NCBI GenBank assembly: GCA_030144965.1
Contig: JAMPUU010000007.1
Span: forward strand, 124,001-188,000
Direction: 5' to 3'
From: Nitrospira sp. BO4
GTDB taxonomy: Bacteria; Nitrospirota; Nitrospiria; Nitrospirales; Nitrospiraceae
DNA: 64,000 nt
The notes beneath the pieces were generated by a model. The model saw only the letters and a list, made by a program, of their open reading frames with translations. It did not search any database and was not told where the DNA came from. Each line of letters opens with the position of its first letter. The stretch's first letter is position 1. The translations under genes and the position numbers were made by a program. Shown piece by piece: positions 26,172-54,237 of this stretch.

Positions 26172-26924
26172 CTAAATCGCATCATATCGCCGCTTCAGCA
26201 CATCTTCTTTCGCCGCCCGAATGGAACCAAAGATAAAACTGATACACGGGATCGCCAGACAAATCATCGTGCTCACCACGACAAAGAATCCGGACTTAAA
26301 GAGCGCATTGCGCATCTCGACCAACCAAAAGAAGAACGTATCCCACTGATCCAGCGTGAAAAACGACCGAGCCATCCAATACGAGGCCGTTAAAATATGC
26401 GACAGCAGCTCGGGCGTGACCTTCAGATAGAGAAAATGAAAGGTGAAAAAGACCAGGATCATTTTCAGGATGCTCCCAGTCACGAACCCCCCATACAATT
26501 GCCAGATCGCATGACGGCAGACATTCCCGAAGAAACAGGAACCCAGATTGAAGGCCATCAAAATGTTATAGCCCAGCATATAGCTAATACTGATCACCAT
26601 CGCAAACACCTGGTCCATGATCGTGGGATCCGTACTCCCAAATATGGGCACTACCCGATCGATCACCCCGACACTGAGCGGGACAAATATGAGACTCACC
26701 AAGGTGTCAGCCCACCCGCCCTTGAGTCCCACATCGAAATACCCCACCTTTTCATTCAACAAGAGAAAATGTTGCGGAATCGGATTGCCGGTCCGCTCCA
26801 CCGCCGACAACTTCTCAATGTCCGAAATCGCTTCTAAGAGACTCTTTGGCTTCGGTCGGGAGGTCGAACTTGGAAACATCGGACCAGACGAACCCTTGCC
26901 ATATATCCCGCCGCCATCTGCCAT
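26172..26924 (-). CDS. Multi-pass membrane protein of the conjugation operon
   Basis: 250 aa. After about 75 soluble residues there are four to five hydrophobic spans: LVSLIFVPLSVGVI, VFAMVISISYMLGYNILMAF, a third around GSILKMILVFFTFHFLYL, then FFVVVSTMICLAIPCISFIFG. The C-terminal tail is basic (AAKEDVLKRRYD). I do not recognise a family. Its position, two bases after the 98-aa membrane gene and downstream of the HD protein, suggests an inner-membrane accessory of transfer or of the element's maintenance. Confidence 0.72.
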   Translation of the reverse strand: MADGGGIYGKGSSGPMFPSSTSRPKPKSLLEAISDIEKLSAVERTGNPIPQHFLLLNEKVGYFDVGLKGGWADTLVSLIFVPLSVGVIDRVVPIFGSTDPTIMDQVFAMVISISYMLGYNILMAFNLGSCFFGNVCRHAIWQLYGGFVTGSILKMILVFFTFHFLYLKVTPELLSHILTASYWMARSFFTLDQWDTFFFWLVEMRNALFKSGFFVVVSTMICLAIPCISFIFGSIRAAKEDVLKRRYDAI

Positions 26925-26926
26925 AG

Positions 26927-27223
26927 TTATGGCCCCCCAATCCCTAAGATACGCGCCACCGAACCCAGATAGGCAAAACAGGAAGTAAAGATAAAGAACA
27001 TCACCCCGAGCCCGAATTTCTGCTTATAGGTGCCATACCAGAAGGAATAAAAGAGACAGACACAAGCGCCGATGCGCGCCATGGTGCCCTGGAACATCAT
27101 ATTAAACACCGTCAACCACATGGTCCGATAGGACGCTTCGTCCGTATAGGTGAGGGGATCGAGATAGTCGAACAAACTTGCGGCTGCCGAGACGAGATGT
27201 ACACTCGCCGTAAGATCGATCAT
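26927..27223 (-). CDS. Small membrane protein
   Basis: 98 aa with two predicted membrane spans: MARIGACVCLFYSFWYG (about residues 50-66) and FGLGVMFFIFTSCFAYLGSVA (70-90). The N-terminal half is amphipathic (LVSAAASLFDYLDPLTY). No family recognised. It is tightly packed between the HD-domain gene (15 bases) and the 250-aa membrane gene (2 bases), and the two membrane proteins may form one complex. Confidence 0.65.
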   Translation of the reverse strand: MIDLTASVHLVSAAASLFDYLDPLTYTDEASYRTMWLTVFNMMFQGTMARIGACVCLFYSFWYGTYKQKFGLGVMFFIFTSCFAYLGSVARILGIGGP

Positions 27224-27238: not shown

Positions 27239-28588
27239 CTAGCGCACCACATCTTCAATCTGTGTAAAATACGCCGTTTTCCGCTGTTCCAACTCGGATG
27301 GCGTGGTGGCAAATGCCGATTCGACAATCGGCACGCAATAGTAGCCATACTGTTTTTTTGATCGAAGCCGAAACGTATACTTCCGCCCATAAAATCCTTC
27401 ACCAATCGGTTCTGACAACACCCCCGCCTGCGCCAGCGACCGCGCTAACCGACGCATGACCTCTTCTCGGTCAGAGGCCCGTAACAGATGGATATCGATG
27501 ATCTGCTTATTCCGCGCCAGCTCTTTCACGAGGCCATAGAGCGAATTGGCTTGGCAATAAATCACGCCGTGGACCGAGACCGCCACCCATTCAGATTTCC
27601 GACTCCCCGTCGGTTCCCCCCGATTGATTAACGGTTCAACGAGGGCTAAAAATTCCGCCGCGACAAACCAATCCTCCCACTTCTTAATCTCCATCGTCTT
27701 CGTCACATAAGCGACTTCTTCTTCACGCGCCCGCCCGTCCGCCTGCTTGAGCAAGGATGCAAACCCATCTTTCACATGCCGATGATGCGCCGAAATCACC
27801 TGGCAAACTTCTTCTAGCCAAAACACGTCATGCCCTTCAAAAGCTTCTTTTACCTTCACGATACTGATGGCCGGATGATCCCGCATGGAATAGATCCCGG
27901 ACTGTCGAAACGCCGGAATCTTCCCTAAATCATGCCCCAAACAGGCCACCAACATTTTCGGAATCAACGGCTCCGGATCTTTGTAACTGGCTAGCAACAC
28001 CGCTAACCCGTGGCGAGTCACCCGATGCGTATGGTCTTTCAGGTTTACTTGCGCCAATGTGTCTCGAATGCTGTAGAGATCGCCACATTCTTCGTCTTGG
28101 GTCTTCTGCTCGAGGACAACAGACGGACATTGTCCATACTCCTCAAGGAGGTCGATGATTCTGACAATGGGCACCAATACGCCCTGCGTCTGCAACATCC
28201 CCTGATAAGGCATCACAAAATCCCGTACCAACTGGGACGACGGAGACCGGAACGTAGGGGACGCAGCGACCGGAACGGCTGGCTGTGAATCCCTCGTACC
28301 TCCCGGCACTGCGGGAGCCTCAGGCGCTGGAGCAGCAGAGGTGATCACCGTCGACTGAGGCGTTAACGCCTCCGCCATACTCATTTCAATCCCAGATCCC
28401 ATCCGAACCCCATCCTCATGGGTCGGCCGAAAATCCTCGTTATGACGCAACCAGATCGGCGACAGGTCTTGAAGGGACAGCACGAGCGGCTCAGGAGGAG
28501 GCAAAGCCCGCTGTTTCACCCCAAGCAGCAATTTGAGCGGAAGCCGGACGATGGCCGACTCCCGGACCTGGGCTAACCACGCACGCAT
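27239..28588 (-). CDS. HD-domain protein, possible MOBH relaxase relative
   Basis: 449 aa from the ATG at 28588, whose A/T overlaps the upstream gene's TAA as TAATG; longer frames exist but would run through that gene. Residues 150-340 contain an HD hydrolase: DHTHRVTRHGLAVL, CLGHDLGKIPAF, MRDHPAIS and ISAHHRHVKDG then KQADGRAREEE. The C-terminal part (YCQANSLYGLVKELARN, HLLRASDREEV, IGEGFYGRKYTF) resembles the winged-helix C-terminal domain of TraI_2 proteins. MOBH relaxases of SXT/R27-type elements have an HD core, so a DNA-processing role in transfer is plausible, but it is shorter than those enzymes. Confidence 0.6.
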   Translation of the reverse strand: MRAWLAQVRESAIVRLPLKLLLGVKQRALPPPEPLVLSLQDLSPIWLRHNEDFRPTHEDGVRMGSGIEMSMAEALTPQSTVITSAAPAPEAPAVPGGTRDSQPAVPVAASPTFRSPSSQLVRDFVMPYQGMLQTQGVLVPIVRIIDLLEEYGQCPSVVLEQKTQDEECGDLYSIRDTLAQVNLKDHTHRVTRHGLAVLLASYKDPEPLIPKMLVACLGHDLGKIPAFRQSGIYSMRDHPAISIVKVKEAFEGHDVFWLEEVCQVISAHHRHVKDGFASLLKQADGRAREEEVAYVTKTMEIKKWEDWFVAAEFLALVEPLINRGEPTGSRKSEWVAVSVHGVIYCQANSLYGLVKELARNKQIIDIHLLRASDREEVMRRLARSLAQAGVLSEPIGEGFYGRKYTFRLRSKKQYGYYCVPIVESAFATTPSELEQRKTAYFTQIEDVVR

Positions 28589-29022
28589 TACTGCCACACC
28601 TCCGGCACCGCGACTTCCGAGAGCTCCGCGACCGCCAATGCCTGCTCCACTGGACGACCCAGCAGCACAAAGACCACCCATGCCTGATCACCCTCCACCC
28701 GCCGCACAGTCCCCACCATCGACATTGAGCCTCGTACCACTTTCACCATCATGTCCACACGAATAGGCGGCGGGGACACAAGAGACTCAGATAAGGGCAC
28801 GATCACCTCATTCGGCGCCGGCAGCACCGCCCGCACACCACGCCACGACCGCACTTCCTGCACCATCGCGATCGAACTGGTCATCGAAAGATACCCCATA
28901 CCGACATGGACAATGGCAGAGGCCCCCACACGCGCCAGCAGACGCGCAATCCGCGCTTCATGACCCGGAAGCACTTCCACAACAAACGGCTCCATCGCCT
29001 GATCGGCTGGCAGCGTGAGCAT
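28588..29022 (-). CDS. NusG/Spt5-like (NGN-KOW) protein
   Basis: 144 aa. The N-terminal 90 residues read like an NGN domain: FVVEVLPGHEARIARLLA, then IVHVGMGYLSMTSS (the 'GYIFVE' strand region) and WRGVRAVLP with VIVPLSES. A KOW-like segment follows: VDMMVKVVRGSMSMVGTVRRVEGDQAW and VVFVLLGRPV. Length and order fit Spt5/NusG. Specialised NusG paralogues (RfaH, ActX) are known to antiterminate long pilus and transfer operons. The gene is inside a transfer operon, joined ATG-to-TAA with the lytic transglycosylase gene. The assignment rests on pattern reading and needs a profile search. Confidence 0.6.
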   Translation of the reverse strand: MLTLPADQAMEPFVVEVLPGHEARIARLLARVGASAIVHVGMGYLSMTSSIAMVQEVRSWRGVRAVLPAPNEVIVPLSESLVSPPPIRVDMMVKVVRGSMSMVGTVRRVEGDQAWVVFVLLGRPVEQALAVAELSEVAVPEVWQ

Positions 29023-29556
29023 TTATGGAATCTCCTTCAACGCCTGATGAATTTTCCAGGGATATTGCGGATTCACGCCGTTGTACCGTTCGATCGCTTT
29101 CCAGTTATAGCCATGACGATCAATCGATTCCCGAAGAATCCGCGCGGCATACCGCAAATTCGTGCACGGGTCTAACAGATAGACGGGGTGAATCTTGAAC
29201 CGTTCCATGTTGATCGTGTTCACCTGCCCGAGCCCGACGTCGAAGTTTTCATTCTTCTTCCAGAGCGCCGTCACGGTTTGCACCGCTTGGTCATACGACC
29301 GCACCGATTGAGGATACCCCCGTCCTCGTCGATTAATGGAGATGGCCAGCGGGTTCCAGGCACCGTTTTCTACACGAACAATCGCGTGCAACAATCGAGG
29401 ATGTAAGTGATAGGCACTGGCTGCGCCTTGCACACAGGCCTGATAGGGCTTCGACTGATCCCGCACTGCCTTCCGGTCTGCCGCCGACGCCCACCCTGTG
29501 GTTAGCACCAGCAGGCACCCGCAACAACACAACATACTCAGTATTCTGTTCACCAC
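29023..29556 (-). CDS. Lytic transglycosylase of the conjugation apparatus
   Basis: 177 aa with a signal peptide (LSMLCCCGCLLVLTTGWASA). The SLT fold is clear: LLHAIVRVENGAWNP with the catalytic Glu, FDVGLGQVNTINM, PCTNLRYAARIL and the C-terminal AIERYNGVNPQYP. It is the VirB1/P19-type enzyme that opens peptidoglycan for the secretion channel. The start appears to be a GTG (29556) following GAGGGGGA. It lies directly downstream of traN. Confidence 0.87.
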   Translation of the reverse strand: MVNRILSMLCCCGCLLVLTTGWASAADRKAVRDQSKPYQACVQGAASAYHLHPRLLHAIVRVENGAWNPLAISINRRGRGYPQSVRSYDQAVQTVTALWKKNENFDVGLGQVNTINMERFKIHPVYLLDPCTNLRYAARILRESIDRHGYNWKAIERYNGVNPQYPWKIHQALKEIP

Positions 29557-29574
29557 TCCCCCTCGTGGACCGCC

Positions 29575-31566
29575 CTAGCACGAACTGCCACTCATCGCAC
29601 AGGCTTTGGTTTTCATCGTGGCCGACACGGCCGCCGAATCAAAGGTCGTCGTAATCTGCGCAAAGAATTCCGTCCAGTTAATCGCTTGAAAGTTGATCGA
29701 GGCAAACTCGTTCAACGTGAATCCATCACAATCTTCCGCCCCCGGCGTGCCGAAATTCAGCCCGAGTTGGGACTTCCCTTGCTGTTGAATAATGCGTCCG
29801 AGCATGGATGTATAGGTACAATACGCATCTTCTTTCCTCGTACAAATCCCCAAAATCTTCTCCACGCACCGCGTCCCGACATAGATCACTTCGAACGCCT
29901 TCTTATCCTGCGCCAACGATATTTCTTCCGCACTACAGCTCCCAAGCATTTTGTCCGGATCATTCGAACAACAGTCGATCAAAATCGTCCCGATCGTCGA
30001 GTAGTCACAGCGTTTCGCCGTGCCGGTAAAGATCCTCAGGGTATCCTTGTTGAAGCCATCCTGCACTTCTTTGACCATCGCCATCATCGTCGCCGCTAAC
30101 TGAAAATTAGTATTCGGTGGTGTGCCCGTCGGCATACAGAACGGCACCAGACTCCCCGGTGTCCCGCACGAATTACACTGGAGATTATCTTGCCACTTGC
30201 TGCAGACCTGGCCCCCATTACACTGAAACGTATTGGTGTACACCCGACAGGTCCCACTGACCGGATCGAGCTCCGTGCAGACCGAATCCAACTGAGTACA
30301 GGCCGCGTCACGATAGGTCTGACAAGAATCAGGTATTTGCGTCGGAATATCGTAGACAAAGGACGTCTGCCAGCAGCCCGTCAGCGGATTAACCGAATAC
30401 GAATTGCGCAGTAGTCCGCCCATCACGGTAATAGTCCCGCTCGAAATCCCGCCAAGGCTGTAGCTGAAGGGAATTGTAAAACTCGTGGGAGTCGTCCAGG
30501 TCGCCGTGCCGAGTGTAAAGCTGACGCCCGTTCCGAAACAGCCGCACTTGCTGTTGCAATAATTCACCCAGCCCGGACCACTTACCGATTGACCTTCGCT
30601 GATCGTCCAAGTTCCCCCACCATAGGTCCCGTTCGTACACCCATATTTATTTTCGCCCACGGCATTGCCGCTCACAGAAAACTGGAGCGAATAACCACCA
30701 GAACCATTGGCAATCGGGACGCCATAATTAAAGGCATAATAACCACTCCAAGTGCCGGACCCGGAATTAACCGCAAAAGCCTGCGACGTCGGCATCAGAA
30801 AACTCACCGAACTATAGTCATTACAGGCCATGACCCGCGTCGTCGCATCCGTACAGGTACTCGACACGAGAATCGCTTGGCTTGAGCTGATCAAGGTCGC
30901 ATACGGCGTACACCCATCAATAAATGTTTCGTCCGTATAGGGAGGACTCGTAAGCGGATACACACCACACGCACTCGACTTCAATGATGGGGAATAATTC
31001 TGATCGCAAAACACCCGCGTCATTCCCGGCATCGTACACGTGACCGGCGCCGTCGGTGCCGCGACATACTCAATGCAAATCGGATTATTGACACACGTCT
31101 GATTCGTCTGTGGCACATTAGTCCACCCGGTTGCGACACTCTGGGCCGACATCACCGGACTGGTCGACGCCGCATTCCATCCTTTTGCCTGAGTATCCAT
31201 GTCACGCACTTGAGCCGCCTTGGAATCCGTCGCATAGGCTCCCGTCCCCGCTGCATTCAAAGGCCCGATATTGCCGGTATTGCTGTAATAGCCAGACTGA
31301 GAGGCCCCCGCACAACTCTCATTTGTACATCCAGTCGACCCTCCATATTGAGGTGTTGCACCTTGTTGTGTGTTCACCGTGGCCGGATTCAACGCCCCTG
31401 TTGCCGCAATATTCCCCTGCGCACATTGCGCCTTCGCCAAAGGATCCAAAATAGTGCTGCAATCCGCGGCCGAGCTCAACGGAAGACCAGTGAGGAATAA
31501 TCCGATGATCAGCACCAGATATCTGACAATGCGGACATCGCCACACTGCGCATTCGAGATCATCAT
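29575..31566 (-). CDS. traN: TraN, mating-pair stabilisation outer-membrane protein
   Basis: 663 aa from the ATG at 31566, which follows GAGGAGCCGAGG; upstream frame extension is not expected because it lacks a signal. The N-terminus is a signal peptide (YLVLIIGLFLTGLPLSSA). The protein is very Cys-rich with recurrent CxxxC and CxC patterns, a Ser/Gly/Thr-rich central region, and the TraN-like C-terminal block CCSNDPDKMLGSCSAEE, ..KCVEKILGICTRKEDAYC.., LGRIIQQQGKSQLGLNFGTP and DCDGFTLNEFASINF. F-type TraN anchors the recipient cell during mating. Exact receptor specificity cannot be read. Confidence 0.88.
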   Translation of the reverse strand: MMISNAQCGDVRIVRYLVLIIGLFLTGLPLSSAADCSTILDPLAKAQCAQGNIAATGALNPATVNTQQGATPQYGGSTGCTNESCAGASQSGYYSNTGNIGPLNAAGTGAYATDSKAAQVRDMDTQAKGWNAASTSPVMSAQSVATGWTNVPQTNQTCVNNPICIEYVAAPTAPVTCTMPGMTRVFCDQNYSPSLKSSACGVYPLTSPPYTDETFIDGCTPYATLISSSQAILVSSTCTDATTRVMACNDYSSVSFLMPTSQAFAVNSGSGTWSGYYAFNYGVPIANGSGGYSLQFSVSGNAVGENKYGCTNGTYGGGTWTISEGQSVSGPGWVNYCNSKCGCFGTGVSFTLGTATWTTPTSFTIPFSYSLGGISSGTITVMGGLLRNSYSVNPLTGCWQTSFVYDIPTQIPDSCQTYRDAACTQLDSVCTELDPVSGTCRVYTNTFQCNGGQVCSKWQDNLQCNSCGTPGSLVPFCMPTGTPPNTNFQLAATMMAMVKEVQDGFNKDTLRIFTGTAKRCDYSTIGTILIDCCSNDPDKMLGSCSAEEISLAQDKKAFEVIYVGTRCVEKILGICTRKEDAYCTYTSMLGRIIQQQGKSQLGLNFGTPGAEDCDGFTLNEFASINFQAINWTEFFAQITTTFDSAAVSATMKTKACAMSGSSC

Positions 31567-31600
31567 CCTCGGCTCCTCGTCGATTCCCTCGTTGTCAGAC

Positions 31601-32038
31601 TTATGCGGCCGCTGTCTCTGGCACGGATGAGGACGAGGCGCCACTGGCCGCCACAGGGTGAAATTTCACGACGGTACCGAACATCGTCACTTGCATCATC
31701 GACATCCCTTTTGAGGACAGTGGTTGCACATTCATCACAAAACCCAAAATAGCATCGGGAGCCTCGTGCGATTCCGAGCCATAAATGTGATGCGCCAGAT
31801 CGCTCAACTCACGCAACGCCGGGATAATCAAATCGGTATGGACCGAATTGTTATACGTCCCGACGTTGCCTCCGAAGAAATCCTTGATTCGGGCCAAGAC
31901 ATCACGAAACACGCCCATCCCCTCTGTCTTGTGTACGAACACCAGTCCCAAGGGCTGTACCCGCACTTCGCCTTGCTCCTGAAGCAGCTTCGATTCATGC
32001 ATGCTAAAGATCGGCAAATATGGATAGTTCTGTGTCAT
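31601..32038 (-). CDS. YbjQ/DUF74-like protein
   Basis: 145 aa, soluble. The central segment QPLGLVFVHKTEGMGVFRD, FFGGNVGTYNNSV, LRELSDLAHHIYGSE, APDAILGFVMNV and MMQVTMFGTVVKF follows the YbjQ_1 (formerly 'heavy-metal-binding', DUF74) family, which forms pentamers. The usual 'GG....Y........R..A...M...A...GA.A..G' spacing is recognisable. Why a conjugative element carries it is unknown; the gene overlaps the upstream lipoprotein gene by 4 bases and precedes traN. Confidence 0.6.
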   Translation of the reverse strand: MTQNYPYLPIFSMHESKLLQEQGEVRVQPLGLVFVHKTEGMGVFRDVLARIKDFFGGNVGTYNNSVHTDLIIPALRELSDLAHHIYGSESHEAPDAILGFVMNVQPLSSKGMSMMQVTMFGTVVKFHPVAASGASSSSVPETAAA

Positions 32039-33060
32039 CGAATTACATCCTTATTCTCGTACGGCTTCGCAGAAGGAGCTGCCGACCGTGGAGCTGGTTC
32101 CTGCGCAGCTGTTTGGACGGGCTTCTTCCGTCCCAATTTCTCCCCGATCCACTCCATCCAAGTTTGCTTAACAGACGTCACCTGTTTGACCGGTTCAGTC
32201 TTGCGGGCAAGGGGAGACGGCTCGACGATGCTCACAGGATCAAGACCCTTTGCGGGCCCCACCGGCAAGGATGCCGTCGGAGACGACACTACATCAGAGG
32301 GTTTCGGACCCATCGTCGTGGGCCCCACACCCGGTCCTGCCCCCGGCAGAACCGGAGCCGCCCCGTCTGGTTTTACGGCGGTCTGCGGTACTCCGTCTGA
32401 AGTTCCACTGTCCATCGACACCTTCTGCTCTGGCAGAGTGAGCGGCGGACCATCCGAAGGCTTCGCCACCGGCTTAATCCCAGGCTTCGCCGGTCGATAG
32501 CCCAACTTCTGATCGATCGCCCGCTGGACAGCCGACTTGTCCCGTTCAAGATCGACCGTCCCGGATCCACCATCAACCCGATCCTTCCCCTCAATGGATT
32601 CCACCATGCGCGCAGCCTTTGCTGGCGCAGGACGTTTCATACTGTCCAACTTAGTCGACATACCCGTGAGCGAGGCATTGGTCGCTTGCTGCTGCTCATT
32701 AATGGTCCGAAGAAATTGCAACGTCTCGTTCGCCTGCATCCCCAGCTTCGTCACTTCCCCACGCAACAGCGTCTGCTCCTGTCCCATCAAACCCAAACGC
32801 GTCTGGATGGCTTTCAGTTCATTGGTCGCATGCATCACGACACCTTCCATCCCGGTCAACCGCATCGATTGCCCAGAATAGGCCCGATTCAGCGCCTGCA
32901 CATCCGCATGGAGGCCATCACGCTCAATATCCTGTTCTGTCTTTACCGTCCGCAGGTGATCCGCAATCGCCACCTGCTCGTCGTACGACCACTTCGACAC
33001 GCATCCCCCCAATAACACCACGCACAGCACTGCCACCGTTCCGGTTGACACCACACGCAT
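32035..33060 (-). CDS. Coiled-coil lipoprotein
   Basis: 341 aa from the ATG at 33060, preceded by GGAGG. A lipobox (VVLLGGC) gives a lipidated Cys near residue 20. Residues 30-150 are heptad-rich helices (LRTVKTEQDIERDGLHADV, NELKAIQTRLGLMGQEQTLL) that predict a coiled coil; the C-terminal half is Pro/Lys/Gly-rich and disordered. No family recognised. It may span the periplasm as part of the secretion assembly, since it is coupled to ybjQ-like and traN. Confidence 0.65.
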   Translation of the reverse strand: MRVVSTGTVAVLCVVLLGGCVSKWSYDEQVAIADHLRTVKTEQDIERDGLHADVQALNRAYSGQSMRLTGMEGVVMHATNELKAIQTRLGLMGQEQTLLRGEVTKLGMQANETLQFLRTINEQQQATNASLTGMSTKLDSMKRPAPAKAARMVESIEGKDRVDGGSGTVDLERDKSAVQRAIDQKLGYRPAKPGIKPVAKPSDGPPLTLPEQKVSMDSGTSDGVPQTAVKPDGAAPVLPGAGPGVGPTTMGPKPSDVVSSPTASLPVGPAKGLDPVSIVEPSPLARKTEPVKQVTSVKQTWMEWIGEKLGRKKPVQTAAQEPAPRSAAPSAKPYENKDVIR

Positions 33061-33103
33061 ACCGTCCTCCATTTCGTAGTCCATCCGTGAATCACGCGCC
33101 TAC

Positions 33104-33814
33104 TTAACGAACTTGAACCGGCTGAGCGACGACATCGTGTGATGGAACTCCTATGACCGTCGACTCCGAGCTCTCGCTGACCCCCACCACCTGATCTTTC
33201 GAGACCACCCGTTGCAACTTATTCGGCGCGTGATACTCGACCTGAGCCGACTGACATACCTTCGCCACCGCCTCATTGAGTTCATGGACCAATCCCGAGG
33301 CACGCGTCAGGCGGCCATCATGTTGAAGGGTTTCCAGGCTCACCATCCGTAATGTCACCAACACCTGGTCCATCCGCACGATCGATTCAATGGCTTCCCG
33401 CGCCTCATCGGTTTGCGGGACAATGACATGCGCATCCCGATGTTGCGCCAACTGCTTTCGCTCAGGACCACTGTTCCGCAACACCGTTGGCATCAGAATC
33501 AAATCCCCCCCCGATTCCCTGAGCCAGAATGTCACGTGAGCCTGCCATGCACGAATCGGCTCAATCGCCGCCATCACCGCCTCCACCGTCAGCGGCATCC
33601 CCACCAACCGTCGCAATTTCGACAGCGCCTTATTCAATGGATAAATCATCCGCACCATAATGCGGGTCTCCGGTGAATGCGGCACCAGCACCTGACTCCC
33701 GAACTGCTGCAGCAACTCAAGGTTTCGCACCCGCCGCTCCTCTTGCGAGAGAAATGGCCGGCCCTTCCGTTGTACTGATGCATCCGCTGGACGCGAAGGA
33801 GCTTGTGCACTCAT
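33104..33814 (-). CDS. Uncharacterised protein of the transfer operon
   Basis: 236 aa, no signal peptide or membrane segment. It is helical, Arg-rich near the N-terminus (LSQEERRVRNLELLQQFG), with a middle AFWLRESGGDLILMP-like strand pair (VTFWLRESGGDLILMPTVLR) and a Ser/Val-rich tail. I do not recognise it. It lies between the KH-like gene and the coiled-coil lipoprotein gene, with 16 and 43 bases between neighbours, on one transcript. Confidence 0.6.
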   Translation of the reverse strand: MSAQAPSRPADASVQRKGRPFLSQEERRVRNLELLQQFGSQVLVPHSPETRIMVRMIYPLNKALSKLRRLVGMPLTVEAVMAAIEPIRAWQAHVTFWLRESGGDLILMPTVLRNSGPERKQLAQHRDAHVIVPQTDEAREAIESIVRMDQVLVTLRMVSLETLQHDGRLTRASGLVHELNEAVAKVCQSAQVEYHAPNKLQRVVSKDQVVGVSESSESTVIGVPSHDVVAQPVQVR

Positions 33815-33830
33815 AAACCTTTCCTCCTCT

Positions 33831-34487
33831 TCACAATAGACACGGCGGCATTACCTGCTCGGCCGGTACCACACGTATGCCATGACCGGTCAAACGACTC
33901 GCCACCGCCACATTCATTCCTTTGATTCCCACAAATCGCCCGAGAACCGACGCCGGCACGCGGATAATGGCCTCGCGCGAGGCCCGACACAGCTCGACCG
34001 ATTCGATCGCAGTCACGGGCGCAGGAACCAAGGCTTGCTTGATGTATTGCTCCACCATATGGGAATAGCGCACCAACGACGGATGAAGTCGACAGTAGGT
34101 GCGAAACTCTGGCAGATACGGCATGCAGAGCTTGATGGGGTCTTCTCCCGTCGGACTTGAAACGGCAATCTTCACGAACCCCGCCTGCTGCACCGTCGCC
34201 ACGGCATCAATCACGACGCGCCGTTCCGCAATCAAGGGACGAAACACAAGTTCACACACTTGACGAAGAAAATGGCCGGATCGTTGAGACAGAATGGGGT
34301 ACTGCTCGCCCACCGACTTAATCGACGCATAGAACCGGTCTTGCACCCGATAAGGCCCATCGGCGCAACTTTTCGGCAGGACCGCGAGTTGATCCGTCCC
34401 TCCCATACAGGCGAGGTACGCATCCCGGTCAAGCTTTGCCTTGACCACCACCCCCAATACAAAATGACCAACCTTATCTAGCGCCAT
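33831..34487 (-). CDS. NusA-type KH-domain protein
   Basis: 218 aa. The first 150 residues are unrecognised, with Cys at several places. Residues 175-215 read IIRVPASVLGRFVGIKGMNV and VASRLTGHGIRVVP, close to the NusA KH2 pattern 'AIGKkGQNvrLAs.LtGw.I.v', with the GXXG loop as GIKG. A single KH domain binds single-stranded RNA or DNA. With the NusG/Spt5-like gene in the same operon, a role in transcription elongation or RNA binding is suggested; this is inference. The start at 34487 has no strong alternative. Confidence 0.55.
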   Translation of the reverse strand: MALDKVGHFVLGVVVKAKLDRDAYLACMGGTDQLAVLPKSCADGPYRVQDRFYASIKSVGEQYPILSQRSGHFLRQVCELVFRPLIAERRVVIDAVATVQQAGFVKIAVSSPTGEDPIKLCMPYLPEFRTYCRLHPSLVRYSHMVEQYIKQALVPAPVTAIESVELCRASREAIIRVPASVLGRFVGIKGMNVAVASRLTGHGIRVVPAEQVMPPCLL

Positions 34488-34576
34488 GTCCCTCTATTAC
34501 GGACAAGAAACGAGGAGAAACTCCTCTCACCACATATTCCCTCGCTCGAAACCGCTGTTCTGCAATAGATCGCACC

Positions 34577-34975
34577 CTACCGACCTGACCCCTGACGGCT
34601 AAATCGCTCAATCTCCTCTTTCCACATCTTGCGACACAGACTGTAGGGCACAAACACCACATCAACTCCACGCGACGGCACCACCACTTTGACCATGTAA
34701 CGACCTTCATATTCGCCGGTCACGGTACTCACTTGAACGCCCTTCGCCCGAAGCGAGTTCACAAAGTCTTCAGGGCCACCCCAATTGGGCAGATCACGCA
34801 GCTCACCCGTAATTGACGTCACAGCCGAACAGCCTCCTTGTCCTGTCGCCACCATCCAATGATCGGGACGGTCTGACGTCTTGGCGAAACACAAAGAAGA
34901 GATACCAGCACATACACACACCGTCATCGCTACAACACGACTGATCCCGCGTCTCCCCCTCTGACGAATGTTCAT
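34577..34975 (-). CDS. Small secreted protein heading the left transfer operon
   Basis: 132 aa. A signal peptide (VVAMTVCVCAGISSLCFA) is followed by about 100 mature residues with three Cys, GCSAVTSI, LPNWGGPEDFVNSL, KVVVPSRGVDVVFVPYSL and a helical end. The ATG at 34975 has GAGGCAATT before it. No family recognised. A truncated paralogue lies at 26077-26171. It is the first gene of the leftward operon, divergent from the lipoprotein pair, so the 120-base gap at 34976-35094 should contain both promoters. Confidence 0.6.
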   Translation of the reverse strand: MNIRQRGRRGISRVVAMTVCVCAGISSLCFAKTSDRPDHWMVATGQGGCSAVTSITGELRDLPNWGGPEDFVNSLRAKGVQVSTVTGEYEGRYMVKVVVPSRGVDVVFVPYSLCRKMWKEEIERFSRQGSGR

Positions 34976-35094: not shown

Positions 35095-36333
35095 ATGCGT
35101 ATCTGGCACTTCCGTTCGATCAGCTTCGCGGCCAGCCTCACCCTCTTGAGCCTCATGGGCTGTACGTCCTCGTACTTCGTTCCCATGGAACTCGCACCAT
35201 TCGACATCACACAGCAACACACCGTCAGACAGCCCTTGCACGACCCGCAGCTACACGTACAGACGCATCCCGATGGACTGGGATGGACCGTCTCCGCCAC
35301 GCAAATGTGGGAAGAAACCACAACAGTAGAAGAGCGAGAAATCTGGAGGGGACTCAGCTATCAACCCAGCGAGAACACCACACGACAGATCGGATTGACC
35401 CTAGCCACTCCGATCACCTGTCCAGGCAGTCTCGTCGCCCACCTCCTCCAGCGAGGGATACGACTGATGGGCGTCATGGATGGGCCTGCACCAACATGGA
35501 AACTTGTGTATACCTACTGTGTGGTGCCCCTGCGCGGGCTCGATCCCGCCAAAGAATCCTGGACCTCACAACCAGCAGGGGCAACAACACAACATACATT
35601 TACCACTGTCACCAACACGCCAATCACCGACGGACGTCTGCAACTCCAATGGCGGCAGCCTCAGACAGATCCAGTCGGCATTGAATATCCGCTCACACCG
35701 ACTCAGCCCTTGGTCGATCTTCGACTCCGAGACCTCGCCAGTCTCGTCCAACGAGATCAGACGCCGCCTCACCTTCGCCAAGGCCACGTCGATATCGTCC
35801 TACTGACGTCGGACAAATCACCCGTGCACGAACCACTTCCAGTCAACAGCCACACCCTCGCCGCCGCCCTGGCATCCGATCTCGCGCAACGCCCTCCCGA
35901 TGACTGGCCCATTGTCAAACGGATACGCATTGACAGTACTCGGCCGGACTTGCTCGCGCTTGCCGAACATACCGCCACCGACCTCGGCATCCCCATCGTC
36001 GCACGACAGCAATCCGCACAGGTCCTCCAGCGGCTCCAACAACAAGAAGTGTCGCCACAATTCACCGACACCACTCCCTCAACGATCGGACATTGGACCG
36101 GCGCCACGCTCTTCTTGTCACTCCGATCGACCACCGACTATCCGGGACACCAATTCATCCACGCAACCGTCATCGCGATCGAAACAGGGCTCGTTCTCGG
36201 ACAAGTCACGATCGAAGGTCCGATGACCACCACGCCAGAATTCACCGGCCTGATCCGTGGCGAGCTGGACGCCCTACTCTCGCCGTCCCACGGCAGTCGA
36301 CGACAAGGCGTCCTGATCGAGGACAAACCATGA
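35095..36333 (+). CDS. Lipoprotein with CsgG/LpoB-like C-terminal domain (first of a pair)
   Basis: 412 aa. Lipobox LLSLMGC puts the lipidated Cys near residue 23. An N-terminal region with MELAPFDIT and GWTVSATQMWEE is similar to the next gene's product. Residues 260-390 (KRIRIDSTRPDLLALAEHTA, LGIPIVARQQSAQVLQRLQ, ATVIAIETGLVLGQV) resemble the CsgG/LpoB fold of periplasmic lipoproteins (name a resource, 'ver...l..l', tG.v.). These two genes are the only plus-strand genes in the conjugation region. They may be outer-membrane assembly or surface-exclusion factors; that is inference. Confidence 0.62.
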   Translation: MRIWHFRSISFAASLTLLSLMGCTSSYFVPMELAPFDITQQHTVRQPLHDPQLHVQTHPDGLGWTVSATQMWEETTTVEEREIWRGLSYQPSENTTRQIGLTLATPITCPGSLVAHLLQRGIRLMGVMDGPAPTWKLVYTYCVVPLRGLDPAKESWTSQPAGATTQHTFTTVTNTPITDGRLQLQWRQPQTDPVGIEYPLTPTQPLVDLRLRDLASLVQRDQTPPHLRQGHVDIVLLTSDKSPVHEPLPVNSHTLAAALASDLAQRPPDDWPIVKRIRIDSTRPDLLALAEHTATDLGIPIVARQQSAQVLQRLQQQEVSPQFTDTTPSTIGHWTGATLFLSLRSTTDYPGHQFIHATVIAIETGLVLGQVTIEGPMTTTPEFTGLIRGELDALLSPSHGSRRQGVLIEDKP

Positions 36334-37433
36334 TGCGCTCGCGTGGAATCATAATCTGTTCAGTCCTCGTGCTCGGTGGATGCCACACCTTAATGCCGGT
36401 CGAACTCCCGACCACCAAGACCGTGATGATCGAACGAGAGCGGTTGCCGCATGGAGAACCAACATCAACACTCCAAGCTGATGCCGCCAATCGACGCTGG
36501 ACCGTCGATGTGCGACAAGCCTATACAATCCGCACCGACACCATGACGGTTCAAAAAGAGGGAGTCCGTCGTTATCTCTGGTGGCCACTGGCTCCATTGA
36601 ATGGACTCCTCCAATGCCCGATCGGGATTCTTGCATCCACTGTTTCTGACAGCACCAGCGCACGCACACTCCGCCAAGTCGGATGCATGCGCCTGATTGG
36701 GATGGAACCTTTGCAGGGAGTGGCGGAACATCAGACACATACCACCACCAGTAGCGCACGCCATGAGGACACCGCACCGGCTGCCGGCATCGAGGTAACA
36801 TTTACGCCGGACCTTTCTCCCGACGACATACTCCGAACTGTGACAGGACGCGATGGTGCCATGACATTGACTCACCAACGAATTCACACATCGACACCAG
36901 CCCCCATCACGGGACGTCTCGAAGTGAACGACAATCACAAGACGATCCTCTCACGCTCCATCACGATCACCCCTGATCCTGCCGACCCCTTCCGCAATCC
37001 CAAAACCGCACCGCCAGTCTTACCGGCGAACGACCCGATCATCGTGCAAATCGAGCCATTCACCCGGGAAGACGGCACACCTGATCCCACCCTGCATCCA
37101 GCACTGATCGCCACCCTCCTCCGAGCAGGAATCACGGTCATCGCGAATCAGACCGACACGCAACAACTGGCACAGGAAATCGGATTGCAGCAAGGACTCA
37201 GAATTGACGATGCGGCAAAAGTCCGGCTGGGGAGACTGACACAGCCCACGATCGTCATTGAGGGGAAGGTGCGGACAACCAATCAGATCAAAACACTGAC
37301 TGCGTCGTTGTATCTCGCTAGAACAGGCGAGAGAATCGTACTGAATGGACTGTTAGATCGGGAACTCGGGGAGTCTATCAAAGAAATGTTAACGGGAAAC
37401 CGACAAAGCAGACTGACGAAGACCCACAACTAA
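36330..37433 (+). CDS. Lipoprotein paralogue, second of a pair
   Basis: 367 aa from the ATG at 36330, which makes an ATGA overlap with the preceding gene; longer frames run into that gene. Lipobox VLVLGGCHT. Residues 20-110 repeat the layout of the first lipoprotein (VELPTTKTV, RWTVDVRQAYTI), supporting duplication. The C-terminal part, VQIEPFTREDGTPDP, AGITVIANQTDTQQLAQEIGLQ, LTQPTIVIEGKVRT and LTASLYLARTGERIVL, fits the CsgG/LpoB pattern better than the first copy. The gene converges on the 139-aa secreted-protein gene, 25 bases apart. Confidence 0.6.
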   Translation: MMRSRGIIICSVLVLGGCHTLMPVELPTTKTVMIERERLPHGEPTSTLQADAANRRWTVDVRQAYTIRTDTMTVQKEGVRRYLWWPLAPLNGLLQCPIGILASTVSDSTSARTLRQVGCMRLIGMEPLQGVAEHQTHTTTSSARHEDTAPAAGIEVTFTPDLSPDDILRTVTGRDGAMTLTHQRIHTSTPAPITGRLEVNDNHKTILSRSITITPDPADPFRNPKTAPPVLPANDPIIVQIEPFTREDGTPDPTLHPALIATLLRAGITVIANQTDTQQLAQEIGLQQGLRIDDAAKVRLGRLTQPTIVIEGKVRTTNQIKTLTASLYLARTGERIVLNGLLDRELGESIKEMLTGNRQSRLTKTHN

Positions 37434-38049: not shown

Positions 38050-41000
38050 TCACTTCCTTCTCGACTTCGGAGTGATCCCTCTGCTTTTCATAAACTCATC
38101 AACTTGTTGTTTCGCAGCATCATACGTCCCCTTCAATGCAGGATCACTGGGCGCGTTCGGATCGTATCGAGGTGATTCACCGGAGCCTCCCAAGATTTTG
38201 TCCGCCGATTGCTTAAACCTCGCCGCTCGAAGGGCCTCCATCGAAGTGCTCCAGCCCAACCTCACACCTTCAGCCGTTCTGGCAGCATCTTTCCAGACTC
38301 CTGGCTGATCAGGATTAAACGGCTCAGCCAGCCCGAGCGCCTCAAGCGACTGCTGACCCTTGCCCACCAAAGTAGACTGTTCGTCTATTTTAGTATGTAA
38401 ACCGTATTGATGGAATTCTTCTCGGTCGATACCTTTATTCCCCTGACTAGAGATAACTGCACCAGCTTGATTCAGCACATCGCGAATATGAAAACCTCCC
38501 GCTGACTCAGCTTCACGATGACTCACTTCTCGTTCATTCGTCAACCGCCCCTTTGAGGGATCACGCGGATCAGCCTCTACATCGGCCACAGTAAAGATTG
38601 GTCCCTTTTCTCCCTGATGATAGCCGACCTGTTTTCCAGTCGCCGCATTCGAAAAATTCATGCTAACAATATCACCGTCATGAGACATGTCAATCTTACC
38701 TGCAACGCGCGTCGAGCCCTGTCCATCAGAACGAGGCACTTGAAACGTTCCTGAAAAGCTATTCTCATTTGACCGTGATTGAGTCAGAACCTCAAACTCC
38801 CCCGTCCCATCACCACCACGAGCAAGAGTTTTCGTTACTAACTCTCCATCACCATTTCCCGTCCTCGAATCGACCACGCCTGACTTTGTTCCAGAAATAA
38901 TCTCACCTGATGAATCTTTGTTCAAACGCTGCGTTTCCCTACGACCATCCACAGTTTGAACATTTTGCGTCGTATCGATTGAATTAATCTTTTCAGTACC
39001 AGCCCCCGCAGAAATTACATACCCGACACCCTCACCACCATGGAGAACACCTGCCTCAGTAACCGTCGACCCACCCTCGGGTTCCACAACAGACAAAGAG
39101 GTTTGCCCAATGGGCAATTCACTCAAAGGACGCTCAGCCACATCCACCGCCAATGATCGCTCTCCAAACGCCGACTTATTTTCTGCCACGGTTGTATCTG
39201 GACTTTTCATCAACCGATCCAAGACTGAGCCTTCTTTATTGGGGTCAACAGATGCATGCCCTCGAGAAGTAAAATGCGTTTGACCAATCGATGTCAAATG
39301 TCCATATCCATCATCCTTAAACGCCAGGCCAGTCCAACTTTCTTCATAGGTGAACTGGTCACCACCTAAACTACCCATTAATGTAAGACGATGCCCATCG
39401 TCGTCCAAAACGTGTTGCGTACCCCCTGACGCCAGATCTGAGAAGAAAATCTGTCCATCTTTCCCCTCAACATGCGCTTTGGACGTATGCTGCCCCTTCT
39501 CAGTAGCCGGACCATCATACGACCAAGCAGTCTGAGGGTCATGGGGATTACCGTGAAACGTAAACCGCCCTCCGGCAAGAGTCATATCCGAATGAGGAAG
39601 ATGCATCGACACACCTGACGATTCTCCTTGAAGCCTAGATTGCCAGGTCTCGTCAGAGGCATGAAGCTCCCATCGTTGATCCTTATCGCTATACGACAAC
39701 TCCCCTTTCAGATCTCCACGAAACCCGTCCTGATCTACCGTCAACTGACCCTGAAACGGCAAAGATGATCCATCTGCAGCAACACCACCTTGCCCACTCA
39801 CCACTCCCCCCATGAGCTCATGTGACCCATCACTATGAAACACCTCAACTCCCTCTGCCGGTGTCCCAGTGTACGATCGAGTGAGTTCACCAGCACCACC
39901 TTCTGATGTCGTCGTCATTAATCCATGACTGCTCCCGGTCTTCATCATAAGATCGGTACCATGCCCACTGGTCACGGTCATCCCCTGTGAAAAGTCAGGC
40001 ACACCCCGGTCATCGGTTTTCACATCAGAAAGAGAGTATTGGAAATCCCCATGTTCCGTCGAATGCGCGGTCATCACCCCCTCCCCCCAAGGCGAATCGG
40101 CCGAAGGACGGGAGAAACTCGCGGTTACATCCGCCGTCACTAAGTCTGTCTGACCATTCCTTGTCAGCGGCACCTGAGCTGTTCCAACGTGTTTGCTGTG
40201 CTCACTCCCGTCTCCCATCGTCGTAATTTGATGCGTAAAACCTTGATCAGAGTAGGTGTCCGTTTTCATCTGTCGCTGATTCGCCCCCTGGTCCCACACT
40301 TCTTTATTCTCATGGTTCACGCCATGCTCATCAGTCGACGTATAGGCCACATCGACGTGATCCCCTGAGACTTGAAACTCTGCTTGATGGACCTGCCCCT
40401 GTTCATCCCGAAACTCTTGACGCCACGCCCCTCCCGTATATTGATCACCCTTACGAGCCCATGATCCTTCAGCGCCATGATATTGCTCGGTCCCATCCGC
40501 GCCGCGAAGCAAACTACTCCCATCACTATAACTATAAGCCGTCGACCCGTCTTGACGATGCACCGCAAGACCGGACGAATCCGCATAATGAGAGCTGGCC
40601 TGCATATGACCATGCGCATCCTGACTCCACGTGGTTTCTTCTTTCAAATGTTGACCCGGCTCGACATATTTCCCGTCTCCATGCGCATACGCCGAGGCCT
40701 CATAATTTGCCGCTTGCTGCGCCCCACTTGCCGCGCCGGCCAGCGACGATGCCATCGACGACATGCCATATGTGACCACCGTCGCGAGCGTCGGAACCGC
40801 CCAAATCAGTTTCCCCATAAACGTATTTAAGCCGAGCAACACATTAAAATACTGGTCATAGGAATTGAAGGTGATCTGATTAACCGTAATCAGATTCATC
40901 TGATCAACCCCATAGCGGTAACTCACAAAATTCATAATGACAAACATTGGGATCCACATAAATAACCACCCATACCCCGTAATCGCTCCGCGAATCGTCG

Positions 41001-42060
41001 CAAACATCGCGGGGCTCATGGCCAGCGCCAGCATCAAGGGCGTGAGCAAATAGACCGCACTTTCCGCCACCGTTCGCAAGAGTGGAACAAAGCGAGCCGA
41101 CAACATGGAATCGTTAAAGGCCTGATTCTTGAGATCCTCAGAGATCGATCGATTCATCTTCCCCACAGTGGTCGCCGTATCATTCCCCTCTTCCGCATCC
41201 AACACTTCCGCATCTTTCCAACGCTCACGAAGCAACACATTATTGATGAGCACACGAGGACCCTGTGCAGTCCCAATAATGTTGGTTGAAAACGATTGAA
41301 CCGGCGTCAGTTCATTATCGGCAACATCTTCGATCCCCAACGCCGCCCGGAATTGCCGCATGGTCTCCGCATAGCCAGGCTCTGCCTGTACCAACCCATT
41401 CGTAATCCACCGATCGTACATTTCTGGACAGGTCCGGCTCGCAAACGGGTTTCCCAGTCGCACCTCCATCGTTGAGATCGCAGCATTGGTCGTTTGAATC
41501 GCCGCCGCCATATCCACTGCATCTAAAATCGTGCCTCGATTCAACTCGCCGAGTTGAATCGCCGGAAACGTACAATCCTTCAAATAATTCGTCACATTGA
41601 TTTGAAGATCGCCAGGAATCATTTCCAACGATAGGGTCTTTTGCATATCAAAGAACCCTTTGCCGATCGTCGAATTCACGAGACGATATTCAGCAGGAAG
41701 GCCAAACGTCGTTTCCACACCCACCATGGTCTGGTAACTAATCTCCGAGGTCATATAGGCCGGAAACGCAACCGCTAACGGAACATCCGCAATCACCTGA
41801 TCACCCACCCACGGATGCACCAAATCATGCACCAGAATGGGCATCCGAATATTCATCGTGACAGCCAAAATCAGCAACGCCCCAATCACCCACTGCCAAA
41901 CCACACGTCCGCGCCCCAGATACGCCGACACACTCCCAAAGATCAGGCAAATCATGCCCAGGCGCAGCAAACTCTCATATCCGCCGCCCATCATAAACAC
42001 GATACTGCGGAAGACATCTGACAGCACATCGCCATTCCCAAAGGTATTGATCTGCCACAT
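38050..42060 (-). CDS. traG: TraG, mating-pair stabilisation / inner-membrane protein
   Basis: 1336 aa, in the usual size range for large TraG proteins. The N-terminal third has membrane spans (YESLLRLGMICLIFGSVSAYL, VVWQWVIGALLILAVTMN, and AESAVYLLTPLMLALAMSP, LFMWIPMFVIMNF) and the TraG_N topology. From about residue 480 it is a long hydrophilic, Gly/Asp/Ser/His-rich region with repeated SYSDGSS/YSDQGF-like and 'HSDGSH' units. This exposed part is the one that recognises the exclusion protein in the recipient in F and SXT. It lies directly downstream of traH (13 bases). Confidence 0.87.
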   Translation of the reverse strand: MWQINTFGNGDVLSDVFRSIVFMMGGGYESLLRLGMICLIFGSVSAYLGRGRVVWQWVIGALLILAVTMNIRMPILVHDLVHPWVGDQVIADVPLAVAFPAYMTSEISYQTMVGVETTFGLPAEYRLVNSTIGKGFFDMQKTLSLEMIPGDLQINVTNYLKDCTFPAIQLGELNRGTILDAVDMAAAIQTTNAAISTMEVRLGNPFASRTCPEMYDRWITNGLVQAEPGYAETMRQFRAALGIEDVADNELTPVQSFSTNIIGTAQGPRVLINNVLLRERWKDAEVLDAEEGNDTATTVGKMNRSISEDLKNQAFNDSMLSARFVPLLRTVAESAVYLLTPLMLALAMSPAMFATIRGAITGYGWLFMWIPMFVIMNFVSYRYGVDQMNLITVNQITFNSYDQYFNVLLGLNTFMGKLIWAVPTLATVVTYGMSSMASSLAGAASGAQQAANYEASAYAHGDGKYVEPGQHLKEETTWSQDAHGHMQASSHYADSSGLAVHRQDGSTAYSYSDGSSLLRGADGTEQYHGAEGSWARKGDQYTGGAWRQEFRDEQGQVHQAEFQVSGDHVDVAYTSTDEHGVNHENKEVWDQGANQRQMKTDTYSDQGFTHQITTMGDGSEHSKHVGTAQVPLTRNGQTDLVTADVTASFSRPSADSPWGEGVMTAHSTEHGDFQYSLSDVKTDDRGVPDFSQGMTVTSGHGTDLMMKTGSSHGLMTTTSEGGAGELTRSYTGTPAEGVEVFHSDGSHELMGGVVSGQGGVAADGSSLPFQGQLTVDQDGFRGDLKGELSYSDKDQRWELHASDETWQSRLQGESSGVSMHLPHSDMTLAGGRFTFHGNPHDPQTAWSYDGPATEKGQHTSKAHVEGKDGQIFFSDLASGGTQHVLDDDGHRLTLMGSLGGDQFTYEESWTGLAFKDDGYGHLTSIGQTHFTSRGHASVDPNKEGSVLDRLMKSPDTTVAENKSAFGERSLAVDVAERPLSELPIGQTSLSVVEPEGGSTVTEAGVLHGGEGVGYVISAGAGTEKINSIDTTQNVQTVDGRRETQRLNKDSSGEIISGTKSGVVDSRTGNGDGELVTKTLARGGDGTGEFEVLTQSRSNENSFSGTFQVPRSDGQGSTRVAGKIDMSHDGDIVSMNFSNAATGKQVGYHQGEKGPIFTVADVEADPRDPSKGRLTNEREVSHREAESAGGFHIRDVLNQAGAVISSQGNKGIDREEFHQYGLHTKIDEQSTLVGKGQQSLEALGLAEPFNPDQPGVWKDAARTAEGVRLGWSTSMEALRAARFKQSADKILGGSGESPRYDPNAPSDPALKGTYDAAKQQVDEFMKSRGITPKSRRK

Positions 42061-42073: not shown

Positions 42074-43444
42074 CTACTGTGTCCCTTGCTTCTTACCTGA
42101 CGCCTTCGGCAGCGACTTCTTCAATGTATGCGTCGAGTAATAGGTAAAGGACGGACCTTTATCCATACGTCCGAGCTCCACCATCATCGCGGAATGTGCG
42201 ACATTCTTAACGGCCCTAACCTGGGTATAAAAGTCCTTCAAGTCAGCCGGAAATCCCTCCTGCTTTTGTGCCCACCGACTCGCCTGTTTTTCCACTTCCT
42301 TGACCGCCCGATCGATCCACGCCCACGCGAACTCCGCACCGAGCAACGACCCCACTTGGGCTTTCAACACTGCAGTTTGACCCGGCTGCGTTGCATACCC
42401 GATGAGCAGCCGATACAACGGAATCGGCGACTTATCGATCAGATCGCGCTCCACGTCAGTGAGGGGTACACGATCAACCGTAATTTTTTGCACAATGGAA
42501 TCGTACATCTCCTCAGCACGCAACTGCGTGCCTTTCAGGGTGAGATTGTCGGTTTCTTCAACCGCCAGACACCGAATGGGATCCGCGGCCGGGCAGGTCA
42601 ACATCCGGATATTGGTTGAAGTACCATTTGAATTAATCAGATCATGCAGCTCGATCGTCGGTTGTTTCGTAATGGGAATCCCATCAAGACCGACGACAAT
42701 CGTTCCCACTACACTTTGCATCAACACCGCATCGTCAACGGCCCATCCCGCCTCGGTCAACGCTTGATAGACGAGATTTCCTTTCGGATCGCGGGGTGTC
42801 CCTTCCAGGGAGCTCGCGCCATCTTGCAGCGTCTGATTTTTCTCCGTATCCTGCGCCGCCCAGTAATCCATTAACGCGCCCGACGCCACGCCGACTTCTT
42901 TCACCGAATTTTGGATATTCGTCGCAATCCCTGATAGCTGATTCGGTTCACCCTTCACCATCTTCGCTAGCTCCTGACCGGTCTGACATGGCCCGATGCG
43001 GCCCGCGGCATTGATGGCACGCGCCGCCGCTTCTAGCTTGGAAATAATGTTCTCACACGGCTGACAGAGCTCCATTAATGCCAACTGAAAGGCAAAGCCT
43101 AGCACCCCCGATGTTCCCAATTGTTGCAGGAGATCCGTGAACCTGGACAGGGAGGGGAAGCTGATCGACCCCAGATACAGATCCACTTTCCCGCACCCGG
43201 CTGAAAATCGAGGCGGACTCAAGCTGATCAAATTAAACGTCTCATTGGGAATACGAACCCCCAAGGACCCGCCCATCAAGGCCCCACCCACCTGACTTTG
43301 ATACGCCCCGGGCCGCGTCGAGGTTACTCCACCCCATCCATTGAACATCCGTTGCAGCGAATCGTTGATATCCGCCCACGCAGCCACGGGCGTCACACAA
43401 CTCATCCCGAGCCACAACACCATGACCCACGATCGGATACGCAT
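42074..43444 (-). CDS. traH: TraH, pilus assembly protein
   Basis: 456 aa. Signal peptide, then the conserved opening DINDSLQRMFNGWGG and GAYQSQVGGALMGGSLGVRIP, RFSAGCGKVDLYLGSISFP and CQPCENIISKLEAAARAINA. These are the standard F-type TraH landmarks, including the Cys residues that need TraF/DsbC for folding. The protein belongs to the periplasmic assembly of the F pilus. Neighbours traG and traF are in the usual order. Confidence 0.93.
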   Translation of the reverse strand: MRIRSWVMVLWLGMSCVTPVAAWADINDSLQRMFNGWGGVTSTRPGAYQSQVGGALMGGSLGVRIPNETFNLISLSPPRFSAGCGKVDLYLGSISFPSLSRFTDLLQQLGTSGVLGFAFQLALMELCQPCENIISKLEAAARAINAAGRIGPCQTGQELAKMVKGEPNQLSGIATNIQNSVKEVGVASGALMDYWAAQDTEKNQTLQDGASSLEGTPRDPKGNLVYQALTEAGWAVDDAVLMQSVVGTIVVGLDGIPITKQPTIELHDLINSNGTSTNIRMLTCPAADPIRCLAVEETDNLTLKGTQLRAEEMYDSIVQKITVDRVPLTDVERDLIDKSPIPLYRLLIGYATQPGQTAVLKAQVGSLLGAEFAWAWIDRAVKEVEKQASRWAQKQEGFPADLKDFYTQVRAVKNVAHSAMMVELGRMDKGPSFTYYSTHTLKKSLPKASGKKQGTQ

Positions 43445-46937: not shown

Positions 46938-47188
46938 ACGAACCACCCTTTCTCCACACGAGGATATTCCGGACACACCTCACACACGGAGTCCAAAGAC
47001 GCCATCGCCCAATGTGTATCGGGTGCCGGATGGACATGGGCAGGGAGCTCACGCATGACCACCTTCATCACAAACCACAACAAAATAGCGAGTAGAGCAG
47101 CTTGCAGGACCTGACTAAGAAGATCTTCATACAACACTGAATCCGACTCGCCCATCTGACGGACATGACTGGTTAGAAAATTGGCCAT
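46934..47188 (-). CDS. Small single-span membrane protein
   Basis: 84 aa. A membrane span LSQVLQAALLAILLWFVMKV lies at about residues 24-43 with a short N-terminal cytoplasmic part, followed by a Cys/Pro-containing periplasmic tail (CEVCPEYPRVE). It overlaps the peptidase gene by 16 bases and the trbC-traW start by 4, so it is translated as a coupled unit. No family recognised. Its position corresponds to TrbI-like small proteins, but it does not look like TrbI. Confidence 0.55.
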   Translation of the reverse strand: MANFLTSHVRQMGESDSVLYEDLLSQVLQAALLAILLWFVMKVVMRELPAHVHPAPDTHWAMASLDSVCEVCPEYPRVEKGWFV

Positions 47189-54208: not shown

Positions 54209-54237
54209 AACCGATCTCAGAGTTAGACTACGTTCTC

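Follow-up and report, generated by a model that had tools for sequence, protein, structure and literature searches.

A NusG/Spt5-like protein and a NusA-core protein are encoded together in F-type transfer clusters of Nitrospira elements

Does a mobile element of Nitrospira encode transcription elongation factors of its own to serve its transfer genes? The question is raised by a stretch of 64,000 nt from Nitrospira sp. BO4 (the window; coordinates given here are window positions), for which an original prediction, made from the sequence alone, read one gene of a conjugative transfer region (28588-29022) as a NusG/Spt5-like protein with NGN and KOW domains, read the end of another (33831-34487) as resembling the second KH domain (KH2) of NusA, and suggested that the two products could form an element-encoded antitermination complex. 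Both open reading frames are present at these positions on the minus strand, within a cluster of F-type (MPF-F) type IV secretion genes recognised by Pfam (TraN, TraG, TraH, TraF, TraU, TrbC, TraC, TraV, DsbC, TraB, TraK and TraE), and in related elements they likewise lie in F-type transfer clusters. Profiles, predicted structures and distribution confirm the observation and make it stronger than first stated; its interpretation is partly supported. Neither outcome that would have overturned the prediction holds: both families have profile matches, and their homologues are not confined to lone occurrences away from transfer clusters.

As a single sequence, the 144-residue NusG-like protein has no Pfam, NCBIfam or NusG-like PDB match. 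Its relatives at the equivalent place in other elements, which are 24-31% identical to it, match KOW and Spt5-KOW models, and a profile of the family matches E. coli NusG (E-value 9e-12), Spt5, and the housekeeping NusG of the window genome (3e-4), where three normal-sized NusG-family genes are present. The profile, an AlphaFold model and Foldseek agree on a short NGN domain (residues ~9-80) followed by a KOW domain (~84-140), bearing out the prediction. In the model (pLDDT 85) the NGN is followed by a five-stranded KOW; the pTM is only 0.50 because the two domains are loosely placed, and the VIA Z-score is modest (about 9) because they align one at a time. Archaeal Spt5 and NusG head the Foldseek matches (best 2.1e-6), with RfaH lower. 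The KOW is all beta in this model, AlphaFold being unable to exclude helical switching of the RfaH type. The GY strand of the NGN is largely kept in the family alignment. The divergent relatives show plain features of NusG, among them a KOW with LFGR and, in some, a PGYV strand. Most members keep a KOW strand of the form (L/I/M)FGR, which corresponds to the part of E. coli NusG that faces S10 and Rho; it is absent from the NPIRA members. By profile and predicted fold, the protein belongs to the NusG/Spt5 family.

The reading of the second protein stood as far as it went, the KH2 GxxG being present as GIKG, but it was too narrow. The 218-residue protein matches NusA over its full length, in the part of E. 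coli NusA (residues about 130-350) that comprises S1, KH1 and KH2. It matches NCBIfam TIGR01953 (NusA; 5e-10) and, by phmmer against the PDB, NusA 4mtn (5e-6), in an alignment that spans residues 135-342 of E. coli NusA; the family profile matches M. tuberculosis NusA 2asb (1.8e-14). The AlphaFold model (pLDDT 93, pTM 0.87) matches E. coli NusA in Foldseek (1.4e-17), and VIA aligns it with M. tuberculosis NusA 1k0r (Z 22.2 over 205 residues) and archaeal NusA 2cxc (Z 11.1). The KH2 GxxG is kept in 21 of 24 members. Judged from profiles and model, the product is thus a whole NusA S1-KH1-KH2 core. Its reading frame starts at S1, without the N-terminal RNA polymerase-binding (flap) domain and without acidic repeats, and for want of the polymerase-binding domain it cannot act simply as a second NusA; a normal nusA is found elsewhere in the genome (G000:C10). 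A separately encoded N-terminal domain next door was considered and rejected: the upstream gene encodes a predicted secreted protein, and the downstream product has no Pfam match and, in the PDB, finds only designed helical proteins with weak E-values. Chance resemblance is ruled out for both proteins by profiles and folds, each family having profile matches and the two models retrieving Spt5/NusG and NusA, respectively.

The two genes recur together. A scan with an alignment of the HD-domain protein that adjoins the NusG-like gene found 32 loci, including one on the chromosome of N. moscoviensis (L037), and both genes are present in 11 of them. These are almost all the loci whose length would allow the two genes to be seen, with L045 as an exception. 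Among 296 sampled Nitrospirota genomes the NusA core was called at E-values below 1e-30, in frames of 214-248 amino acids, weaker matches falling in frames of at least 355 amino acids, i.e. housekeeping NusA. Eleven genomes have the NusA core, and all 11 have a short NusG-like gene as well. Strong NusG-like matches (E-values below 1e-23) occur in nine of these and in none of the other genomes, and in all nine the pair is 4-6 kb apart. The short NusG-like proteins of the other two, G176 and G052 (146 and 142 amino acids), were found by a wider profile. In G176 the two genes share a strand and flank the tra genes at a distance of 38 kb, so their linkage survives a change of gene order; in G052 the genes are 32 kb apart on opposite strands.

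Of 395 genomes from another phylum, to which the Syntrophaceae genome G296 belongs, 7 have a NusA-core gene, and a short NusG was found in two of these seven; where readable, several of the NusA-core genes adjoin transfer genes (SLT, TraB, DsbC, TraV, TraC). Overall, wherever the surroundings can be read, the NusA-core family lies mostly among transfer genes. G296 itself has three NusG-like copies in frames of 140-155 amino acids (contigs C137, C411 and C438) and probably harbours several such elements. A search of genome and viral contigs with a single NusA-core sequence gave no close relatives, and more distant HD homologues in delta-proteobacteria (L053-L064) are without the NusA core. A tblastn search of a plasmid collection with the NusA core returned only two Paenibacillus NusA genes, which leaves a suggested kinship with SXT/R27-like elements unsupported.

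In a phylogeny built from S1-KH1-KH2, the 24 rows from elements part from the 15 rows of housekeeping NusA with 100/100 support; the tree has long branches, and only this split is used, placement inside the element clade being unsure. A fresh copy of the host nusA is thereby ruled out. The element clade includes Desulfobacterota members, whose elements have a different gene order, and since elements of two phyla share one NusA-core lineage, that lineage is ancient and was not copied from the nusA of each host. Ratios of nonsynonymous to synonymous substitution (dN/dS) of 0.07-0.16 for the NusA core and 0.11-0.28 for the NusG-like gene indicate that both are under purifying selection. An assembly labelled as the same species as the window's (G277) encodes a NusA core 62% identical and a NusG 30% identical to those described here. 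Between close elements partners have been swapped: L038 and L039 are 99% identical in the NusA core and 83% in the NusG-like protein, whereas for L038 and L040 the values are 93.5% and 100%. Both the swaps and the divergence of G277 are as expected for mobile, recombining elements. L038 is a contig of a Mesorhizobium metagenome-assembled genome (JAHBYX010000018.1) near-identical to the Nitrospira elements, and is probably mis-binned, not the result of transfer to an alphaproteobacterium.

Both genes lie in one minus-strand unit of the transfer cluster, as predicted, but not in a single operon of ~37 kb. Opposite-strand genes, conserved in that orientation in relatives, separate TraG from the unit that carries the pair, which begins at 34975 and is ~9.6 kb long. 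Its genes encode, in order, a predicted secreted protein, the NusA core, a protein of no assigned function, a lipoprotein-like protein, a YbjQ-like protein, TraN, a lytic transglycosylase, the NusG-like protein, the HD-domain protein and two predicted membrane proteins.

What might this pair do? We put at about even the chance that it is an element-encoded, two-protein elongation and antitermination module serving the transfer genes, antitermination being the part that we infer from analogy. The NusG-like protein would bind the clamp of RNA polymerase through its NGN, as RfaH and ActX do, and would displace host NusG; the NusA core would use S1 and KH2 to hold the emerging transfer transcript close to the RNA exit channel. 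The missing N-terminal domain is the most telling feature for the mechanism. Because of it, the protein is expected to hold RNA and not to promote hairpin-dependent pausing or termination, as it could not strengthen pause or terminator hairpins. Together, the two proteins would let RNA polymerase overcome termination and pausing along transfer units that are long and seldom expressed. The more specific proposal, that they assemble on RNA polymerase at the transfer genes as a dedicated antitermination machine, a minimal Nus complex of mobile elements, is tentative and falls somewhat short of an even chance.

Three other explanations have also to be weighed. It is possible, though rather unlikely, that their roles are separate, the NusG-like protein being an antiterminator of the ActX/RfaH type and the NusA core a post-transcriptional RNA-binding regulator of transfer mRNAs (translation, stability or autoregulation). 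The lack of a polymerase-binding domain would suit such a regulator, as would the spacing of the genes in distant elements (tens of kb, and opposite strands in G052) and the five Desulfobacterota genomes that have a NusA core and no detected short NusG. However, co-presence in all 11 Nitrospirota genomes with a NusA core exceeds what separate roles require, and in known systems NusA S1-KH1-KH2 and NusG are found in the same elongation complexes. Still less probable is a NusA antagonist, which would take nascent RNA or other factors away from host NusA and so abolish the pausing and termination that NusA stimulates, with the NusG-like protein confining the effect to the transfer genes. With its KH1 GxxG lost, the core may differ from host NusA in the RNA that it binds; on the other hand, it is without the termination-stimulating domain, and the NusG paralogue LoaP does act by antagonising NusA (PMC12691694). 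Silencing, in which the KOW would recruit Rho and keep transfer genes off until induction while the NusA core relieves or tunes the block, would suit the (L/I/M)FGR strand of most members but is very improbable, the NPIRA members being without FGR and the characterised transfer-linked NusG paralogues RfaH and ActX being activators (PMC8955417, PMC13250579).

Several observations weigh against the elongation and antitermination module itself. The KH1 GxxG is replaced by a shorter unrelated stretch and is lost in nearly all members. In one locus (L045) the NusG slot holds only an 86-residue KOW-like reading frame (8475-8735, plus strand), which is perhaps a NusG-like version without NGN. In the five Desulfobacterota genomes mentioned, mostly at contig ends, the short NusG was not found, an absence that is not established because several contigs end near the gene. 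Terminator-like sites in the region are no commoner than in shuffled sequences, and no ops-, nut- or boxA-like recruitment site is shown in the clusters, the only enriched intergenic motif being promoter-like. This motif, GTAATA, is the most intergenic-enriched 6-mer of these clusters (20 observed against 1.6 expected, with a stop codon in the motif itself biasing against coding occurrence), and in most elements it is found, often as CGTAATAC, upstream of the nusA-like gene. In four elements it stands 11-13 nt before an ATG that has no Shine-Dalgarno sequence; its distance from genes that do have one is about 40 nt. Inverted pairs of it occupy the divergent region of two relatives, and this spacing and these pairs suggest a core promoter of the element. 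The sequence CGTAATACCT occurs seven times in the genome, three of them on contig C7 (two of those upstream of genes with a Shine-Dalgarno sequence), and is genome-wide no commoner than its reversed control. Given this control frequency, the stop-codon bias and the promoter-core-like positions, GTAATA was dropped as a candidate antitermination signal. The copy CGTAATAG, just before the nusA-like gene of the window, may be promoter-like or regulatory.

Table 1. Features of the transfer region in the window, in order of position
Feature	Position	Strand	Evidence or remarks
Two small predicted membrane proteins (26172-26924, 26927-27223)	26172..27223	-	conserved after the HD gene
HD-domain protein, adjoining the nusG-like gene	27239..28681	-	marker for finding relatives; true start probably downstream of 28681
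NusG/Spt5-like protein, 144 aa	28588..29022	-	family profile, AlphaFold model, Foldseek
SLT lytic transglycosylase	29023..29556	-	
TraN, F-type mating-pair stabilisation	29575..31644	-	PF06986, 1.3e-42
YbjQ-like protein	31601..32038	-	
Lipoprotein-like, conserved in the block	32035..33084	-	
Conserved protein with no assigned function, encoded next after the NusA core	33104..33814	-	most Nitrospira relatives, two Desulfobacterota elements
NusA S1-KH1-KH2 core-like protein, 218 aa	33831..34487	-	profile, AlphaFold model, Foldseek, VIA
CGTAATAG motif immediately before the nusA-like start, where a Shine-Dalgarno sequence is not clear	34489..34502	-	also precedes the gene in relatives
Small protein predicted to be secreted; its gene opens the unit and precedes nusA-like	34577..34975	-	conserved in G277 and G259
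Two lipoprotein-like genes, splitting the transfer region into two units	35095..37433	+	conserved in relatives
TraG	38050..42060	-	Pfam
TraH	42074..43444	-	Pfam
TraF	43455..44339	-	Pfam
TraU (44584-45708) and TraW/TrbC-type (45705-46976)	44584..46976	-	Pfam
TraC	47785..50304	-	Pfam
TraV, DsbC, TraB, TraK, TraE	50352..54816	-	Pfam

The features of the region are listed in Table 1. The conserved neighbour directly downstream of the NusA-core gene, whose fold is unassigned, is a possible third partner; if the NusA core contacts RNA polymerase at all, it might do so through this neighbour or through the NusG-like protein. Outside the window a 515-residue reading frame resembles type IV coupling proteins (PF10412, 3.6e-5; DotL, 6e-5) and is matched by homologues in G176 and G052. 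No relaxase was recognised in the element, the HD-domain protein being a candidate only. Between TraE and the next transfer-side gene lies a 467-residue IscB-like protein with RRXRR and HNH domains (54834-56237, minus strand), and at this gene there is a strong terminator-like hairpin (56184-56159). Defence-like genes adjoin the transfer region (8525-24191), among them a SIR2-STAND-TPR gene (8525-11617), an OLD-type AAA/TOPRIM gene (17425-19026) followed by a UvrD-like helicase (18998-20128) in an arrangement resembling a Gabija pair, and a pPIWI-associated nuclease (23064-24191). Positions 188001-247700 of contig C7 (L067, L068, L069), together with L077 and L078, encode a recombination directionality-like protein, TnpB, a Sigma70_r2 protein, ParB, UvrD, a DnaG-like zinc finger, DNA polymerase III beta and an RPA-type initiator; contig C7 thus carries a large element that encodes replication functions of its own and perhaps also a sigma factor.

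NusG paralogues that serve transfer operons are known, and it is the NusA-core partner that is new. RfaH acts on F-like transfer operons and is described as the sole processive antitermination system so far known for conjugation operons of Gram-negative bacteria (PMC8955417); it is, like the present protein, a NusG paralogue for long transfer operons, but it is host-encoded and recruited at ops, whereas in the present case the element encodes both factors and no ops was found. ActX, which activates conjugation in IncX plasmids (PMC13250579), and plasmid-borne RfaH (R6K, IncX) are closer in being NusG-family paralogues encoded with the type IV secretion genes of the element (PMC7819879, PMC13250579). 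The present NusG differs from them in being very divergent, with a short NGN, and in lying late in its unit, in an F-type cluster, with a NusA-core partner; no NusA-like partner is mentioned in the available parts of those two sources. The conAn system of the Gram-positive plasmid pLS20 is also element-encoded and two-component, and gives processive antitermination over a conjugation operon of more than 30 kb (PMC8955417), an activity that is inferred for the present pair; conAn consists of a protein and an RNA, whereas the present pair is made up of a relative of NusG and a relative of NusA, both of them proteins. LoaP resembles the NusG-like protein in being a specialised NusG with an action linked to NusA (PMC12691694), but it antagonises host NusA, needs no other factor and serves biosynthetic operons. 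The NusA core shares its fold over the whole chain with bacterial NusA, of which an S1-KH1-KH2 fragment from M. tuberculosis binds boxC-like RNA (PMC6614801). However, bacterial NusA has the N-terminal polymerase-binding domain that this family is without, archaeal NusA is without the S1 that is present here, and the family has lost the KH1 GxxG.

A search of the literature, with subscription papers outside its coverage, found no paper that connects a NusA-like protein to conjugation and antitermination and no use of the term 'NusA paralog'; nor, in the literature searched, was there a report of a NusA-derived protein that persists in mobile elements and evolves separately there. A matched NusG and NusA-core pair on a mobile element thus seems to be undescribed so far. 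The minimal Nus complex, if true, would be the first element-encoded one of its kind for Gram-negative conjugation and the NusA core the first element-borne NusA family. The locus is carried by a cultured host, N. moscoviensis, and a natural NusA core without the polymerase-binding domain makes it possible to study on its own the half of NusA that grips RNA. If the pair works together, the element would bring part of the elongation machinery with it and would be less dependent on the RfaH of its host.

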